A DNA stretch of 54,242 nt, from positions 1 through 54,242 of the forward strand of contig JAQXLU010000091.1 in the NCBI GenBank assembly GCA_029012285.1, given 5' to 3'. Each line of letters begins with the position of its first letter. Within the stretch, counting starts at the first letter, position 1. Shown here piece by piece: positions 5,981 to 54,242 of this stretch. The stretch is from Clostridiales bacterium (GTDB taxonomy: Bacteria; Bacillota; Clostridia; Christensenellales; Aristaeellaceae). The notes below the pieces were generated by a model. The model had not been told where the DNA came from and searched no databases. It was given only the letters and a program-made list of their open reading frames with translations. The translations under genes and the position numbers were made by a program.

Positions 5981-7345
5981 ATGCGTATCCTGATCGTCGG
6001 TGATGGCAAGGTGGGCCATACCCTGGCCACGGAGCTGCTCCGGGAGGGTCATGATATTACGATCATCGACCAGAATGAGGACGTGATCAGAAAAACCGAG
6101 GACAACCTCGACGTGATGTGCATCCTCGGCAACGGTGCGAACGCCTCCACGCTGATGGAGGCCGGGGTCGACCATGCGGACATCCTCATCGCCGCCACCG
6201 CATCCGATGAGATCAACATGCTTTGCTGCCTGATCGGCAAGAAGCTGGGCGCGAAGTTTTCCATTGCCCGCATCCGCGACCCGGAATACAGTGAATCCCT
6301 CCAGCTGCTCCAGCACGAATTGGGCATTGATATGACCATCAACCCGGAGCGCGCCGCTGCCCTGGAGATTTCCCGCATGCTGCGCTACCCCTTTGTCAAC
6401 AACATCGAGCCCTTTGCCAAGGGCCGCGTGGAGCTGGTGGAATTCCTGGCCCGCGATGCCGACGTGATCGTCGGCAAGCCCCTCAGGGAGCTGACCTCCC
6501 GACATTCCGACCTGCCCAAGGTGCTCTACTGTGCGGTGGAACGGGAAGGCGAGGTCGTTATTCCCGGCGGCGACTTCGTTATCGAGCCGGGCGACCGCGT
6601 CCACGTCGCTGCGGATATGCTTACGGTGACCCAGTTCTTCCGCCACATTGGCCGCAGCGCCAAGCCCGTCAAGGACGTGATGATCCTGGGCGGCGGTCGC
6701 ATCAGCTATTACCTGGCGAAGATGATCGAGAAGATGAACATCCGCGTGGTGATGTTTGAGATCAACCCGGAAAAGGCGAAAACGCTCTCCGAATTGCTGC
6801 CCCATGCGGACATCATCCTGGGGGATGGCACCGATCAGGATCTGCTGGATCAGGAGAACATCGCGGGGATGGATGCGTTCATCGCCCTGTCCGACCGCGA
6901 CGAGGAGAACCTGATGGCCGGACTATACGCAAAAACCCACGGCGTGCCCAAGGTGATCGTGAAATCCAACCGCTTTGCCTATAAGGACGTGATTGCCAAC
7001 CTGGGCCTGGAGAATCAAATCAGCCCGCGCCTCATCACCTGCAACACGCTGCTGCGCTATGTGCGCGCCCGCGTCAACGCCCGGGGCACCACCATTCAGA
7101 AGCTCTACCGCCTGGTGGATGGCAAGGCAGAGGCGCTGGAATTCATCGCCAAGAAAGGCGACCCCTACATTGGCATCCCGCTGCGCCAGCTGACCGTCCG
7201 CAAGGACGCGCTGGTGGCCATCATATTGCACAACGGAAAGGTCGTCGTGCCCTTTGGTGACGACACGATCGACGCCGGTGACAATGTGGTCATCATCTCC
7301 ACCGCCAGCGGGATTTCCGATCTGAACGAGGTCATCAAGAAATGA
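5981..7345 (+). CDS. trkA: Trk potassium uptake regulatory subunit TrkA
   Basis: 454 residues, the full two-module length of TrkA (KtrA proteins have one module). Each half has a Rossmann RCK_N domain: MRILIVGDGKVGHTLA at the N-terminus and VMILGGGRISYYLAK from about residue 230. Each is followed by an RCK_C domain (about 140-220 and 370-450). The cytosolic ring binds NAD(H)/ATP and gates TrkH. ATG 5981 with AGGAGG (5968-5973) is preferred over an upstream in-frame TTG. The stop overlaps the trkH start by 4 bp, implying translational coupling. Confidence 0.96.
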   Translation: MRILIVGDGKVGHTLATELLREGHDITIIDQNEDVIRKTEDNLDVMCILGNGANASTLMEAGVDHADILIAATASDEINMLCCLIGKKLGAKFSIARIRDPEYSESLQLLQHELGIDMTINPERAAALEISRMLRYPFVNNIEPFAKGRVELVEFLARDADVIVGKPLRELTSRHSDLPKVLYCAVEREGEVVIPGGDFVIEPGDRVHVAADMLTVTQFFRHIGRSAKPVKDVMILGGGRISYYLAKMIEKMNIRVVMFEINPEKAKTLSELLPHADIILGDGTDQDLLDQENIAGMDAFIALSDRDEENLMAGLYAKTHGVPKVIVKSNRFAYKDVIANLGLENQISPRLITCNTLLRYVRARVNARGTTIQKLYRLVDGKAEALEFIAKKGDPYIGIPLRQLTVRKDALVAIILHNGKVVVPFGDDTIDAGDNVVIISTASGISDLNEVIKK

Positions 7346-38159: not shown

Positions 38160-38171
38160 CTTCCAATTTCG

Positions 38172-38244
38172 TACACCATCAGGGACTCGAACCCTGGACA
38201 CCCTGATTAAGAGTCAGGTGCTCTACCAACTGAGCTAATGGTGC
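38172..38244 (-). tRNA. tRNA-Lys (anticodon CTT), copy 1, no encoded CCA
   Basis: Cloverleaf readable on the minus strand: GCACCAT acceptor, GTTGGTAGAGC D-arm, CCTGA-CTCTTAA-TCAGG anticodon arm (CTT), GTTCGAGTC T-loop. The 3' end continues CGA, not CCA, unlike copies 2 and 3, so CCA must be added. Last gene of the tandem transcript. Confidence 0.95.
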
Positions 38245-38262
38245 ATATAGAATCCGGGTTGC

Positions 38263-38338
38263 TGGTACACCATCAGGGACTCGAACCCTGGACACCCTGA
38301 TTAAGAGTCAGGTGCTCTACCAACTGAGCTAATGGTGC
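38263..38338 (-). tRNA. tRNA-Lys (anticodon CTT), copy 2, CCA encoded
   Basis: Same 73-nt body as copy 1, with encoded CCA (38265-38263). Confidence 0.96.
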
Positions 38339-38355
38339 ATATGAACCCGGATTCT

Positions 38356-38431
38356 TGGTACACCATCAGGGACTCGAACCCTGGACACCCTGATTAAGAG
38401 TCAGGTGCTCTACCAACTGAGCTAATGGTGC
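38356..38431 (-). tRNA. tRNA-Lys (anticodon CTT), copy 3, CCA encoded
   Basis: Same body and encoded CCA (38358-38356). It is first in the transcript, about 30 bp after the promoter -10. Confidence 0.96.
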
Positions 38432-50202: not shown

Positions 50203-50367
50203 ACGCCAAAAGGAGCTGCCGTAGGGGGCATTTCGGTAAGACAGGTTTGCTCATAGCATTGTCTGTCATATTTGGATTGCTTATTGTACACGATCTTATA
50301 TTGTGTGTGATTATTGTGTAACCAGTTAATCCCATCACACAAGCCAGTATACTGGATATACACACGA
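50203..50367. other. Intergenic A/T-rich stretch after tmcAL
   Basis: No gene with a ribosome site. An open frame ending at 50321 encodes a hydrophobic string (GLLIALSVIFGLLIVHDLIL) but lacks a credible start. A perfect palindrome CCAGTATACTGG lies at 50344-50355; its role is unknown. Confidence 0.45.
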
Positions 50368-50461
50368 AGGCTGGGATGCATTGCGCATCTCAGCCTCCTT
50401 CTTTGGGGAAATATATCTTATAACATTTCAATCCACGCATCGAACACGGTGATTGATGCGA
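50365..50461 (-). ncRNA. Candidate Cas-regulating RNA (CreR-like) upstream of cas3
   Basis: Predicted transcript from about 50461 (7 bp after the -10 at 50473-50468). It begins with an orphan I-C-like repeat and continues with a spacer-like stretch from 50424, starting GTTATAAGATATATTT, into the hairpin at 50396-50368. The stretch matches a TTC-flanked site (50505-50520) before the cas3 promoter at 14 of 16 bases. After processing by Cas5c it could load Cascade and repress cas3-cas5c-cas8c by blocking the promoter. Partial pairing would favour binding without Cas3 cleavage. The 3' end is approximate. Sequence layout is seen; function is inferred. Confidence 0.75.
50368..50408 (+). terminator. 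Hairpin after tmcAL, possible 3' boundary of the divergent RNA
   Basis: AGGCTGGGATGC/GCATCTCAGCCT (50368-50379 with 50385-50396, one G-T pair), followed on the plus strand by CCTTCTTT. On the minus strand the same stem has one mismatch and a poor T-tract, so it could be only a weak end for the RNA starting near 50461. Confidence 0.65.
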
Positions 50462-50462
50462 C
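50425..50462 (-). CRISPR. Single orphan/degenerate type I-C repeat
   Basis: Minus strand begins GTCGCATC and ends GATGCGTGGATTGAAAT, i.e. the conserved I-C ends (GTCGC..., ...GCGTGGATTGAAAT) and stem CGCATC/GATGCG. The loop is about 13 nt, giving 38 nt against the usual 32. No second copy lies within reach, so this is not an array. The operon's true array is probably outside the window. Confidence 0.85.
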
Positions 50463-50467
50463 AACTT

Positions 50468-50496
50468 ATTATAGCAAGAATCGCACACAACTTCAA
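50468..50496 (-). promoter_or_regulatory. Promoter of the repeat-bearing RNA
   Basis: Minus strand TTGAAG (50496-50491), 17 bp, extended -10 TGCTATAAT (TATAAT 50473-50468). The predicted start is within the first bases of the repeat, with no leader. Confidence 0.82.
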
Positions 50497-50501
50497 CATA
50501 A

Positions 50502-50520
50502 TTCGTTATTATATATATTT
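50502..50520 (+). promoter_or_regulatory. Putative Cascade target (TTC PAM plus seed match) before cas3
   Basis: TTC at 50502-50504 (the I-C PAM) is followed by GTTATTATATATATTT. Compared with the spacer-like GTTATAAGATATATTT, only positions 6 and 8 differ. A full-length Cascade footprint from here reaches about 50538 and so covers part of the cas3 -35. Confidence 0.7.
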
Positions 50521-50535
50521 TAAAGTCGAATTCTG

Positions 50536-50564
50536 TTGACAAACTGTTTCCCATACGCTAAAAT
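50536..50564 (+). promoter_or_regulatory. Promoter of the cas operon
   Basis: TTGACA (50536-50541), 17 bp, TAAAAT (50559-50564); expected start near 50571, leaving a 47-nt leader to cas3. Confidence 0.88.
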
Positions 50565-50617: not shown

Positions 50618-52984
50618 ATGCATATAGCACATATAGCCATTGATCCACAAACAAAGGCATGTTGCATTCAGACTTGTACGGAACATTCACGTTCTGTTGC
50701 TGCTTTGGCACAAGGAGTCCTTGTTACCTGTGGGTTAGGTTCAACGGGATACCTTGCAGGATTGTTGCACGACTGCGGTAAGTTCACAGATGAATTCGAT
50801 GAGTACATCACGAAAGCGAGTAACAACGAACCCGTTCACAGGGGTAGTGTGATCCACACATTCGCCGGTGTGCGATGTGTCATGGAGCTGTTTCATTCTC
50901 TACCTGAGCAGTCTATGGAAAATATTGTGGCCGAGGTCATTGCCATTTGCATCGGCAGTCATCACGGCTTGATTGATCTATGGAACGAACGGCACGAAAG
51001 CGGCTTTGATCATCGGCTGAAGCAGCAACCAGCCTATGACCGTCGGGCGATCACGTCCTTTTATGAAGAATGTGCATCCAAAGACGAAATCGACCAGCTT
51101 TTCAACGACGCGAAGAAGGAGATCATATCCTATTTTCAGCCAAAGATCCATGCTTATGTCAAAAGCCAAAAGGAATGCTGCTATGCTCTTGGCCTGCTGG
51201 TGCGCCTGATCACCTCGGCTATCGTGGAAGCAGACAGGACGGACACCCGATGCTTTATGGACAACCTCCCCCTTCCACAGAACAACCCGCCTGACTGGGC
51301 AGAATGTGCCGCACAGGTTAATGCACACATTGCTTCCTTTCCACAGGAGAAACCCATCCAGTTGGCGCGCAGAGCTTTTTCCGACCGCTGTGCCGAGGCT
51401 GCAAAGAACGCACCCGGGCTTTACCGGCTCGACCTGCCCACTGGCGGTGGTAAAACGCTGGCTGCCTTGCGTTTTGCTGTGCTTCATGCTGAAAAGAACA
51501 AGCTGCGCAGGATTTTTTATGTTGCTCCATTCCTTTCCATTATCGAACAGAATGCCAATGTGATCAAGTCGGCGGTGGGTGACAGCATTCCCGTGCTGGA
51601 GCATCATTCCAATCTGGTACAGGAAGAAGCAACGACGGAGCAGGTGGCGCAAACGGAATATATGCAGGAAACATGGGATGCACCCATGATCATCACTACC
51701 TTTGTACAACTGCTGAATACACTGTTTAGTGGCAAAATGTCCTCGGTACGACGTTTCCATGCATTATGCGAAAGCGTCATCATCATTGATGAAGTGCAGT
51801 CCCTGCCATCCAGGATGCTTTCCATGTTCAACTGCGCGATCAATTTCCTGGTCAGATGCTGCAAAGCCACAGTGGTGCTTTGCTCCGCGACACAGCCGGC
51901 TTTCGACAAAGCAGAACGCAAGATGCTCCCCTGTGAAACGCTGATCAGCGATGAGATGTTCAAGCAATATGCGCCGCTTTTCCAACGGACGAGGATCCAG
52001 GATGCCGGTTCCTTTTCCATGACGGAGCTTGCCGACCTTGCACTCAAAACGCTTGAATCCACAAACAGTCTGCTGGTGGTTTGCAATACCAAGCGCGAGG
52101 CTGCGGATCTGTTTTGCGCGCTGGCTGAAGTAACAGACGCAAAGCTTTTCCACCTATCCGCCGGAATGTGCATGGCACACCGCAAAGAGGTGCTGAACGA
52201 TATACAGGCAGCCTTGGATGGTAAGGAAAAGCTGATTTGCGTATCCACCCAATTGATCGAGGCTGGCGTGGACATCAGCTTTGGTTCAGTTATTCGTCTG
52301 GCCGCCGGGCTGGACAGCATTGTGCAATCTGCTGGACGGTGCAATCGCCATGGCGAACACACCGAGCCGCAGCCGGTGCGCATTTGTACGCTGAAAAACG
52401 AAAAGTTGGGGCCGCTGAAAGAGATCAGTGAGGCACAAGCTGCCTTGACAAAGCTGTTGGTGGAATATCACCAGCATCCGGCATACTACGATCACAACCT
52501 TGCCTCTGATGCAGCTGTACGTGACTATTATACGGCCCTGTATGTCGATATGCCGAAGCGTGCACAGGATTATTACGTCAACGAACAATACCTTTTTGAG
52601 CTGCTTTCGACCAATAGGCAGTTTTGCCTAAATTCTTCGGCCCATTATCAACTCAATCAGGCTTTCCGCACAGCTGGGGAGTGGTTCGAAGTATTTGACA
52701 GCGCCAGCGAAAGCATCCTCGTTCCCTATAGGGAAGGAAAGGAAATCATCGACCAACTGCCAGAGGAAAAGCGCCAATACGCCCTTTCCGATATAGCCGC
52801 GCTGCTGGAAATAGCAAAACCCTACACCATCTCTGTGACCGCCAGACAAATCGAACAGATGCAAAAGAAAGGTATGCTGTTCACACGGCTGAACGGCAGC
52901 ATCCATGTTCTGAACGACTGCTATTACGACAACAATATCGGCATAAAGGAGGGAAATGATCTGTGCAGCACCCTAATATTGTAG
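50618..52984 (+). CDS. cas3: CRISPR-associated helicase/nuclease Cas3 (type I-C)
   Basis: 788 residues. N-terminal HD nuclease domain (about 1-215): His23 in TEHSRS, His51-Asp52 in LLHDCGKF, His115-His116 in GSHHGL. The superfamily 2 helicase follows with PTGGGKT (274-280), DEVQ (391-394), CSAT, and motif VI QSAGRCNRHGE. It degrades DNA marked by Cascade. GGGGAG stands 7 bp before ATG 50618. Base composition is lower in G+C than tmcAL (hand-counted 43% at 50641-50700), pointing to acquisition by transfer. First gene of the operon, overlapping cas5c by 22 bp. Confidence 0.98.
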   Translation: MHIAHIAIDPQTKACCIQTCTEHSRSVAALAQGVLVTCGLGSTGYLAGLLHDCGKFTDEFDEYITKASNNEPVHRGSVIHTFAGVRCVMELFHSLPEQSMENIVAEVIAICIGSHHGLIDLWNERHESGFDHRLKQQPAYDRRAITSFYEECASKDEIDQLFNDAKKEIISYFQPKIHAYVKSQKECCYALGLLVRLITSAIVEADRTDTRCFMDNLPLPQNNPPDWAECAAQVNAHIASFPQEKPIQLARRAFSDRCAEAAKNAPGLYRLDLPTGGGKTLAALRFAVLHAEKNKLRRIFYVAPFLSIIEQNANVIKSAVGDSIPVLEHHSNLVQEEATTEQVAQTEYMQETWDAPMIITTFVQLLNTLFSGKMSSVRRFHALCESVIIIDEVQSLPSRMLSMFNCAINFLVRCCKATVVLCSATQPAFDKAERKMLPCETLISDEMFKQYAPLFQRTRIQDAGSFSMTELADLALKTLESTNSLLVVCNTKREAADLFCALAEVTDAKLFHLSAGMCMAHRKEVLNDIQAALDGKEKLICVSTQLIEAGVDISFGSVIRLAAGLDSIVQSAGRCNRHGEHTEPQPVRICTLKNEKLGPLKEISEAQAALTKLLVEYHQHPAYYDHNLASDAAVRDYYTALYVDMPKRAQDYYVNEQYLFELLSTNRQFCLNSSAHYQLNQAFRTAGEWFEVFDSASESILVPYREGKEIIDQLPEEKRQYALSDIAALLEIAKPYTISVTARQIEQMQKKGMLFTRLNGSIHVLNDCYYDNNIGIKEGNDLCSTLIL

Positions 52985-53682
52985 AGTTCGAGGTCTACGG
53001 ACCCTACGCTCTGTTTTCCGATCCTCTGATGCGCGTGGGCGGCGAGAAAAACAGCTACCAGGTGCCTACCTACGAAGCACTGAAAGGCGTTTTGTCTTCG
53101 GTTTACTGGAAACCCACCATCATCTGGTACATTGATGAAGTGCGCATCCTGAACCGCATCCAGACAGAGGTCAAGAGCATCCGTCCCATCAAGTACAACG
53201 GCGGCAATGACCTGGCCTACTACACCTACCTAAAGGACTGCCGCTACCAGGTACGGGCCCATTTCGAGTGGAACATGAACCGTCCTGAACTGGCAGGGGA
53301 CCGGAACGAAAACAAACATCACGAGATCGCCAAAAAGATGATCCGCCGTGGCGGCCGCAGGGATGTATTCCTGGGTACTCGCGAGTGCCAGGCCTATGTG
53401 GAGCCTTGCGTGTTCGGTGAGGGAGCGGGCTATTATGACGATCTGCCACAGCTTTCCTTCGGTGTGATGTACCATGGCATAACCTATGCTGATGAGGCTT
53501 ACTCCGAGGACACTGCAGGAAAAATGACTGTCAATCTCTGGCGACCAGTCATGGAGAAGGGGATCATCAAATTCGTCCGGCCAGAAGAGTGCCCCATGCA
53601 CAAGCCCATCAAAGCTATGAGCATGAAAACCTTTGGCGAGGGTAATTTCTCCGGCCTGCGTGAATACGGGGAGGTGACCTGA
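52963..53682 (+). CDS. cas5c: Cas5c (Cas5d) pre-crRNA endoribonuclease and Cascade subunit
   Basis: 239 residues. VEFEVYGPYALFSDPLMRVGGEKNSYQVPTYEALKGVLSSVYWKP is the Cas5 start; Tyr48, Lys118 and His119 (in NKHHEIAKK) correspond to the catalytic Tyr/Lys/His of I-C enzymes. In type I-C Cas5 replaces Cas6: it cuts at the repeat stem base and holds the 5' handle. The start is GTG 52963 with AAGGAGGG upstream, inside the cas3 end. The stop shares one base with the cas8c start. Confidence 0.97.
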   Translation: MQHPNIVEFEVYGPYALFSDPLMRVGGEKNSYQVPTYEALKGVLSSVYWKPTIIWYIDEVRILNRIQTEVKSIRPIKYNGGNDLAYYTYLKDCRYQVRAHFEWNMNRPELAGDRNENKHHEIAKKMIRRGGRRDVFLGTRECQAYVEPCVFGEGAGYYDDLPQLSFGVMYHGITYADEAYSEDTAGKMTVNLWRPVMEKGIIKFVRPEECPMHKPIKAMSMKTFGEGNFSGLREYGEVT

Positions 53683-54242
53683 TGGGACTTTTGCAAAAGG
53701 CACTTGAAACCTACGAAGCAATGGAAGGCCTTGTGGGCATCTATGAAGACGGCAAAGAAGAACCCCTGGCCCCCATCGGCCACATCGTGACCAAGGCGCA
53801 GATCGAGGTCACCATCAATGCTGATGGCACATTCGTTGGTGCCAAACAAGCTGACAAGGATCAGAAGATCATCATTCCAGTAACGGAGGAATCCTCTGGC
53901 CGTACAAGCAGTCCTGCCGCCCACCCACTGTGCGAGCAACTGGGCTACCTGCTGGGCGATGATGAGGTCAAGTTTGACCTGTACATTAACAACCTTACGC
54001 AATGGTGCCAGTCGGCATATGCGCATCCCAAAGCAAAAGCAGTTCTGACCTACACCCAACAGCGCACGCTGCGCAGCGACCTGATCAACGCCGGAATATC
54101 TCTCGACAAAGAAAAAGACATGGTTTGCTGGCGTGTGCTTGGCTTTGGCATTTCAGACCATTCCGCTGTTTGGGAGGATGTCGACCTGATGAAAGCCTAT
54201 TCCTCCTACTATCTGTCGCAAAAACAAGGCGAGACCAATCTT
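53682..54242 (+). CDS. cas8c: Cas8c (Csd1) large subunit, 5' part, cut by window end
   Basis: First 187 residues, open to the last base. MGLLQKALETYEAMEGLVGIY, PLAPIGHIVTKAQIEVTINADGTF and the long helical region to LMKAYSSYYLSQKQGE are typical of Csd1/Cas8c (full length about 600). It recognises the PAM and recruits Cas3. Starts ATG 53682 in a TGATG overlap with cas5c. cas7, cas4, cas1, cas2 and an array would be expected beyond the window. Confidence 0.96.
   Translation, partial: MGLLQKALETYEAMEGLVGIYEDGKEEPLAPIGHIVTKAQIEVTINADGTFVGAKQADKDQKIIIPVTEESSGRTSSPAAHPLCEQLGYLLGDDEVKFDLYINNLTQWCQSAYAHPKAKAVLTYTQQRTLRSDLINAGISLDKEKDMVCWRVLGFGISDHSAVWEDVDLMKAYSSYYLSQKQGETNL

Follow-up and report, generated by a model that had tools for sequence, protein, structure and literature searches.

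A probable one-repeat guide RNA gene of CreR type beside the cas3 promoter of a type I-C CRISPR system, with counterparts in related loci

The turning of a CRISPR effector on the promoter of its own cas genes is an established principle, and the RNAs involved, called CreR, usually, though perhaps not necessarily, take the form of a mini-CRISPR with two repeats. Shmakov et al. (2023, NAR 51:8150) are said to have described CRISPR-derived regulatory elements, mostly of type I, in which standalone repeats carry guides that partly match cas promoters. In its passages on the subject, PMC13131331 names CreR for types I-B, I-E, and V-A. The element analyzed here shares with these RNAs a crRNA-like sequence partly matching a cas promoter, as well as transcription into RNA and autorepression by the system's own effector (PMC13131331, PMC12737573, in the portions treating CreR), the latter two being predictions in our case. 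It differs from them in belonging to subtype I-C, its handle and stem being such as Cas5c processes, and, whereas CreR is also called a mini-CRISPR RNA (PMC12948488, in the passage concerned), in having a single repeat closed by a 3′ hairpin.

Other described systems are more distant. CreA of the type I-B CreTA module is likewise an RNA with a repeat-like and a spacer-like part that guides Cascade to a promoter (PMC8730458, in its section on CreTA). There the guided promoter drives a toxin, whereas here it is that of the cas genes, leading to cas3, with no toxin gene seen among open reading frames of at least 50 amino acids, a scan that a toxin RNA would escape. The long-form tracrRNA of type II-A also directs an effector, through a short complementary stretch, against the promoter of its own cas genes (PMC8730458, same section), but it works with Cas9 and a 9-bp match, and its parts are unrelated to those of the I-C element. 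Finally, the phage RNA anti-CRISPRs called Racr consist of solitary repeat units, also for type I-C, but these are viral and inhibit CRISPR by repeat mimicry, according to the relevant part of PMC10651486; instead of a mimic carried by a virus or plasmid, we found elements standing with cas operons and a matched promoter site in 40 of 142 loci. In the literature that we searched, which took in neither the primary CreR paper nor Shmakov et al. (2023), there was no CreR of type I-C; the I-C form may be new, unless one of these two publications predicts it.

The window that we analyzed, a stretch of 54,242 nucleotides from a Clostridiales bacterium (contig JAQXLU010000091.1), ends within a cas operon of the plus strand. 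The cas3 gene (50618-52984, with its ATG at 50618; 788 amino acids) scores above the cut-offs of NCBIfam TIGR01587 and TIGR01596, cas5c (52963-53682, 239 amino acids) reaches 239.7 bits with TIGR01876 for a cut-off of 85, and cas8c (53682-54242) is cut by the contig end, its 54.2 bits to TIGR01863 falling below the whole-protein cut-off. The Cas8c protein resumes on contig C29 of the same genome, together with the remaining operon genes and an array whose repeat is GTCCCACCCCGCTCGGGGTGGGTGGATTGAAAT. The system is assigned to type I-C by its Cas5c, Cas8c, and Cas3 together with an I-C repeat. Its operon promoter, TTGACA-17-TAAAAT (50536-50564, plus strand; -35 at 50536-50541, -10 at 50559-50564), ends 53 nt ahead of the cas3 start. 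No open reading frame of at least 50 amino acids starts between this promoter and cas3; two listed frames overlap the gap (50314-50523, plus strand; 50390-50554, minus strand), neither of them starting downstream of the promoter.

An initial annotation had read this gap as holding a candidate CreR-type autoregulatory RNA in front of an I-C cas operon, an interpretation that the evidence presented below supports; its coordinates for the repeat, the promoters, the guide, the TTC, the site, and cas3 were all re-found in the window sequence. The lone type I-C repeat GTCGCATCAATCACCGTGTTCGATGCGTGGATTGAAAT occupies 50462-50425 of the minus strand and includes a 6-bp stem, CGCATC/GATGCG in the fold, followed by the 11-nt handle TGGATTGAAAT (50435-50425). 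Compared with the true array, as that annotation had proposed, the repeat has a handle identical to that of contig C29 and a different stem. Ahead of the repeat, the promoter scan and the sequence itself give a -35 box TTGAAG (50496-50491) and, after a 17-nt spacer, a -10 box TATAAT (50473-50468), the placement of which puts the predicted start of the RNA at about 50461-50462, on the first bases of the repeat. Directly behind the latter lies a 16-nt guide, or pseudo-spacer, GTTATAAGATATATTT (50424-50409), and 26 nt after the start of the guide begins a hairpin of -20.3 kcal/mol (50366-50398, also minus strand), which is predicted to form the 3′ end of the RNA in place of a second repeat, even if its tail shows no clean U-run. 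Folding of 50462-50362 returns the repeat hairpin and the strong 3′ hairpin, with -35.5 kcal/mol and a z score of -5.0. The lone repeat of the window is annotated here as part of a predicted RNA gene.

The partner of the guide is found on the plus strand, where TTC (50502-50504), a type I-C PAM, precedes the site GTTATTATATATATTT (50505-50520), identical to the guide in 14 of 16 positions and lying just upstream of the cas3 -35 box. The mismatches fall at guide positions 6 and 8, and position 17 differs too, in agreement with the earlier claim that pairing stops after base 16. That claim had also taken position 6 to be a base flipped out in Cascade, which stands, while position 8 is a true mismatch. 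By arithmetic, the full 34-nt protospacer extends over 50505-50538 and ends inside the -35 box, so that a Cascade footprint would reach it as had been suggested. Two divergent promoters have their -35 boxes on either side of the site (50491-50541), an arrangement in which bound Cascade might also limit its own guide. Two sequence features of a CreR are present in this locus, namely a repeat-like element beside cas genes with the handle of its own array, and a spacer-like part that is partly complementary to the cas promoter region and accompanied by a PAM.

Could such a match arise by chance between A/T-rich stretches, as the initial annotation itself had cautioned? Guide and site are indeed A/T-rich, and guides of other loci do reach chance similarity, since 40 of the 41 guides surveyed below, when compared with the regions of other loci, attained 12/16 in 41 of 1558 trials. 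The caution is fair, but it fails to explain the match. When the 155-nt gap was shuffled 20,000 times with its dinucleotide composition preserved, a 14/16 match of any kind occurred in 0.105% of the shuffles and a TTC-flanked one in 0.005% (a single shuffle), while no shuffle gave a TTC-flanked match at 13 of the 14 positions other than 6 and 12. The target site is unique in the 2.8-Mb genome assembly when at most one mismatch is allowed outside positions 6 and 8. Promoter-like sites in this stretch are not enriched over chance (3 found versus 2.3 expected). Given also that 41 of 53 candidates in the survey score at least 12, with mismatch positions far from even, we assign a near-negligible probability to chance similarity.

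Close relatives provide a further kind of evidence, co-variation of the guide with its PAM-flanked site, which the initial annotation had proposed to look for, its absence being a refutation of that reading, and which we took as a criterion of our own for a CreR. Four metagenome-assembled relatives ("Clostridia bacterium" from the gut of water deer, goat, sheep, and roe deer) have cas3 proteins with 76-85% identity. In L015, L016, and L017 a lone repeat stands before cas3, and the guides are all different, each matching its own TTC site; these are the same three loci as L084, L086, and L081, to which L085 adds a further relative. When these four and the window are compared pair by pair, 40 of 47 differences at read positions occur in guide and site alike, all seven exceptions being at position 8; at positions 6 and 12 of the same five loci, only 2 of 18 differences do so. 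Eight of the 14 read positions vary in this set, and seven of the eight stay matched in all five loci, position 8 being the one that does not. L081, like the window pair, has a single true mismatch among its read positions. In the fourth of the gut relatives, that from roe deer (L018, also L083), the stretch upstream of cas3 contains neither guide nor site and keeps TTGACA-17-TAAAAT, a promoter read by eye; this is perhaps a natural deletion.

The same genome has a second I-C system on contig C158 (L019), with an array handle GGGTT, and this system too possesses an element, antisense between cas3 and cas5 at about 6162-6282 of that contig. Its lone repeat, GTCGGAC-GAGT-GTCCG-TGGGTTGAAAC, has the GGGTT handle like its own array; the guide ATGTTgTTGGTcTGTAA pairs with the site TTT-ATGTTaTTGGTaTGTAA, with mismatches at 6, 12, and 18, the first two being the only ones up to base 17. 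The site lies 4 nt beyond TTGACA-17-TATATT before cas5, a promoter read by eye, the automatic scan having picked another one. When the guides are exchanged, the first set against the gap of the second system and the second against the gap upstream of cas3, the best match is 11/16 and none is flanked by TTC or TTT; judged by their letters, each guide fits its own I-C system only. Five genomes of the family set had two I-C loci fetched: both loci bear an element in two of them (the genome of the window and G030, with L081 and L121), and neither does in G056, G114, and G253.

How widespread are these elements? Searches for Cas5c found it in 56 of 308 genomes of the family (all 59 places outside our own genome were fetched, plus one contig with cas3 only), in 34 of 297 of the order (20 of 26 new places fetched), and in 66 of 392 of the class (60 of 66 non-own places fetched). 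Together with the window and contig C158, this amounts to 142 loci with 219 regions upstream of cas3 or cas5. These contain 53 lone-handle candidates, of which 41, spread over 40 loci, have a site matching in at least 12 of 16 positions, a cut chosen on the two-humped list of scores; the 12 candidates scoring below it were excluded from position counts. By these criteria 102 of the 142 loci, some on incomplete contigs, are without an element; loci that have one make up 23 of the 62 from our own genome and the family, and 17 of the 80 from the order and the class. The target site is flanked by TTC in 34 cases, TTT in 4, and GTC in 3, and it lies in the cas3-cas5 gap in 26, upstream of cas3 in 14, and upstream of cas5 in 1; of the 41 guide genes, 37 run antisense to the cas operon. 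L206 and L212 are weak, with a TTT flank and scores of 12/16 and 11/16, and L206, kept among the 41, may be due to chance; L186, also under the cut, matches at positions 1-11 except 6. A high-scoring TTT-flanked pair in Zymomonas was rejected, being an inverted repeat without a handle.

Beyond the class, Cas5c occurs in 103 of 398 genomes of the phylum search, from which 20 loci were hand-picked to spread down the list and counted apart; two have an element, L257 (mismatches at 6 and 12) and L263 (6 and 10). Cas5c was matched in 33 plasmid records, nine of which were examined; none of these I-C loci, that of Desulfovibrio vulgaris included, had a lone handle with a site of at least 12/16. L219, from a plasmid of Paenibacillus amylolyticus, shows in its cas3-cas5 gap a lone antisense repeat, behind which come a guide and a T-run hairpin; its TTC site scores 10/16, matching guide positions 1-5, 7-9, 11, and 16 only.

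The distribution of matches along the guide is highly uneven. In 40 distinct guides (the one repeated in L167 and L168 being counted once), and with sites chosen by weighting all 16 positions equally, identity is 95-100% at positions 1-5, 35% at 6, 93-100% at 7-11, 28% at 12, 93-97% at 13-15, 80% at 16, and 57% at 17, and then falls to 15-40% at 18-30, around the 29% expected from composition. The match spans about three read segments and then stops. Counted for positions 1 to 16 of all 41 elements, mismatches number 0, 2, 0, 1, 0, 26, 2, 3, 2, 0, 1, 30, 2, 1, 3, and 8; hence 56 of 81 fall at 6 or 12, with a binomial p of 5e-32 if the loci were independent, an independence that this value overstates since the loci are related. 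Following the first matches, the pattern used to recognize handles had been relaxed and GTC admitted as a flank; in the subset of 34 elements with TTC only, 46 of 61 mismatches are at 6 or 12 and the pattern stands. Among 199 cross-locus chance matches, 14.4% of mismatches are at these two positions, versus 12.5% expected. Moreover, a handle-blind search of the first 97 regions for TTC-flanked pairs, in which positions 6 and 12 were ignored (they were scored in the survey of 142 loci), returned 19 pairs, against 2 from three sets of shuffled regions; in 16 of these pairs the partner is found directly behind a CRISPR handle, and the other three are the same pairs on the opposite strand. In Class 1 effectors every sixth base of the guide is flipped out, as stated in the part of PMC11127173 dealing with guide pairing, and bases 6 and 12 are consequently expected to go unread; the profile of guides and sites would then be the imprint expected of such an effector.

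Other parts of the guide gene recur as well. A -10-like box stands upstream of the repeat in 35 of the 41 elements (null 23%); its commonest distance from the stem, seen in 17 of these 35, is 7-8 nt, which predicts a start at the repeat itself. For the 34 elements with an own array found, the handle of the lone repeat is exactly that of the array in 18, with a mean likeness of 10.41 of 11 versus 9.77 between loci, a result that none of 10,000 permutations equaled; L098, with GGATT for the GGGTT of its own array, is an exception. In 40 of 41 cases the guide is followed by a hairpin of -8 kcal/mol or stronger (mean z -4.7 versus mononucleotide shuffles), with at least five T in the nine bases after it in 15 of 41; a second TTGAAA, sought 20-130 nt downstream as in a two-repeat mini-CRISPR, is absent in 40 of 41. 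The site starts between -35 and +65 from the best-scoring cas -35 box in 36 of 41 elements (null 28%), and the 34-bp protospacer overlaps the best-scoring cas promoter in 19 of 41 (null 20%). The overlap count is weaker than the distance count because many sites are just upstream of the -35 box, as are 15 of the 22 without overlap.

Taken together, this evidence makes it very likely that the minus-strand segment from 50462 to about 50366 is a CreR of type I-C, a guide RNA gene with one repeat whose RNA, loaded in Cascade, would repress the cas3-cas5-cas8 operon without cutting. The sequence basis of this reading comprises the promoter-like boxes, the repeat, the guide, the PAM, the site, and the co-variation in relatives. 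Since the guide nearly matches a site beside the promoter of the operon, the immune complex probably turns down its own production. The RNA, transcribed from a promoter of its own, would begin at the repeat and end at the 3′ hairpin, and Cas5c would cut it at the foot of the stem so that the 11-nt handle remains. The loaded I-C Cascade would then bind the TTC-flanked site just upstream of the cas3 -35 box, where about 16 paired bases, in three five-base segments read by Cas7, may suffice to hold it on the promoter while being too few to license Cas3. Indeed, the recruitment of Cas3 follows R-loop formation over the entire guide (PMC11127173, in the portion on interference), which a 16-base match should not allow. 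For the I-C system of Neisseria lactamica, the pertinent sections of PMC10865793 report the use of TTC and TTT PAMs and lowered expression when Cascade is aimed at a promoter. Plentiful array crRNAs, or an anti-CRISPR disabling Cascade, would free the site and let cas expression rise, and Cascade bound between the divergent -35 boxes may restrain the guide as well.

Could the RNA be mainly a sponge for Cascade, or an activator, rather than a repressor? Any crRNA-like RNA would occupy Cascade, but a pure sponge needs no matched site, and a protein bound within the -35 to +65 interval that holds most sites should hinder the polymerase; we consider this quite unlikely. A reading modeled on CreTA, in which Cascade, directed by the RNA, keeps a hidden toxin (an RNA or a mini-gene) silent and thereby becomes indispensable to the cell, is very unlikely: it draws on the similar build of CreA, a repeat-like and a spacer-like part with a partial match to a promoter (PMC8730458, passage on CreA), but the promoter beside our site leads to cas3 with no frame of at least 50 amino acids starting in between, neither of the two overlapping frames starts downstream of that promoter, and the sites elsewhere distribute among the gaps before cas3 and cas5 as given above.

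It might also be argued that a single repeat near cas genes is the relic of a decayed array, a leader-end repeat, or the remnant of a viral mimic, without regulatory role, given that solitary phage repeats act as anti-CRISPR RNAs, I-C included (PMC10651486, in the part on Racr). None of these needs a matching site, whereas the pairing here is kept by paired changes and bears the 6/12 pattern; in the window as in the listed elements, moreover, the stem departs from the array repeat in its letters while the handle stays close to it. We regard such an origin as exceedingly improbable.

If the CreR reading is true, cas expression would be tied, by a built-in guide directing Cascade against the promoter of its own genes, to the amount of free Cascade and, through it, to crRNA load and anti-CRISPR attack. 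The forty natural pairs of guide and site would then offer an evolutionary readout of the bases that I-C Cascade checks and of the length up to which a match still represses without cutting, a readout that is directly testable and useful for I-C gene-repression tools. In its boldest form, which we see as evenly poised between right and wrong, the hypothesis is that more than a quarter of the I-C loci sampled in the class are under the control of a minimal guide gene, with its own promoter, one repeat, a guide of about 17 nt, and a terminator hairpin, which co-evolves with the cas promoter, each system having its own. Positions 6 and 12 would be unread, selection would end the match at the third Cas7 segment as the natural limit for binding without cutting, and Cascade sitting between divergent promoters would limit both operon and guide.

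Some minor observations complete the picture of these loci. The sites of L095, L132, and L137 are GTC-flanked, for which a different PAM may be in use, and in L132 and L137 the guide gene has the sense orientation. In L201 a single I-C locus combines an element before cas3 with another before cas5, the two having separate TTC sites. At gathering thresholds, Rfam gave three tRNAs and no other match in the whole window, the minus strand of which carries three tandem tRNA-Lys (CTT) genes at 38171-38431.
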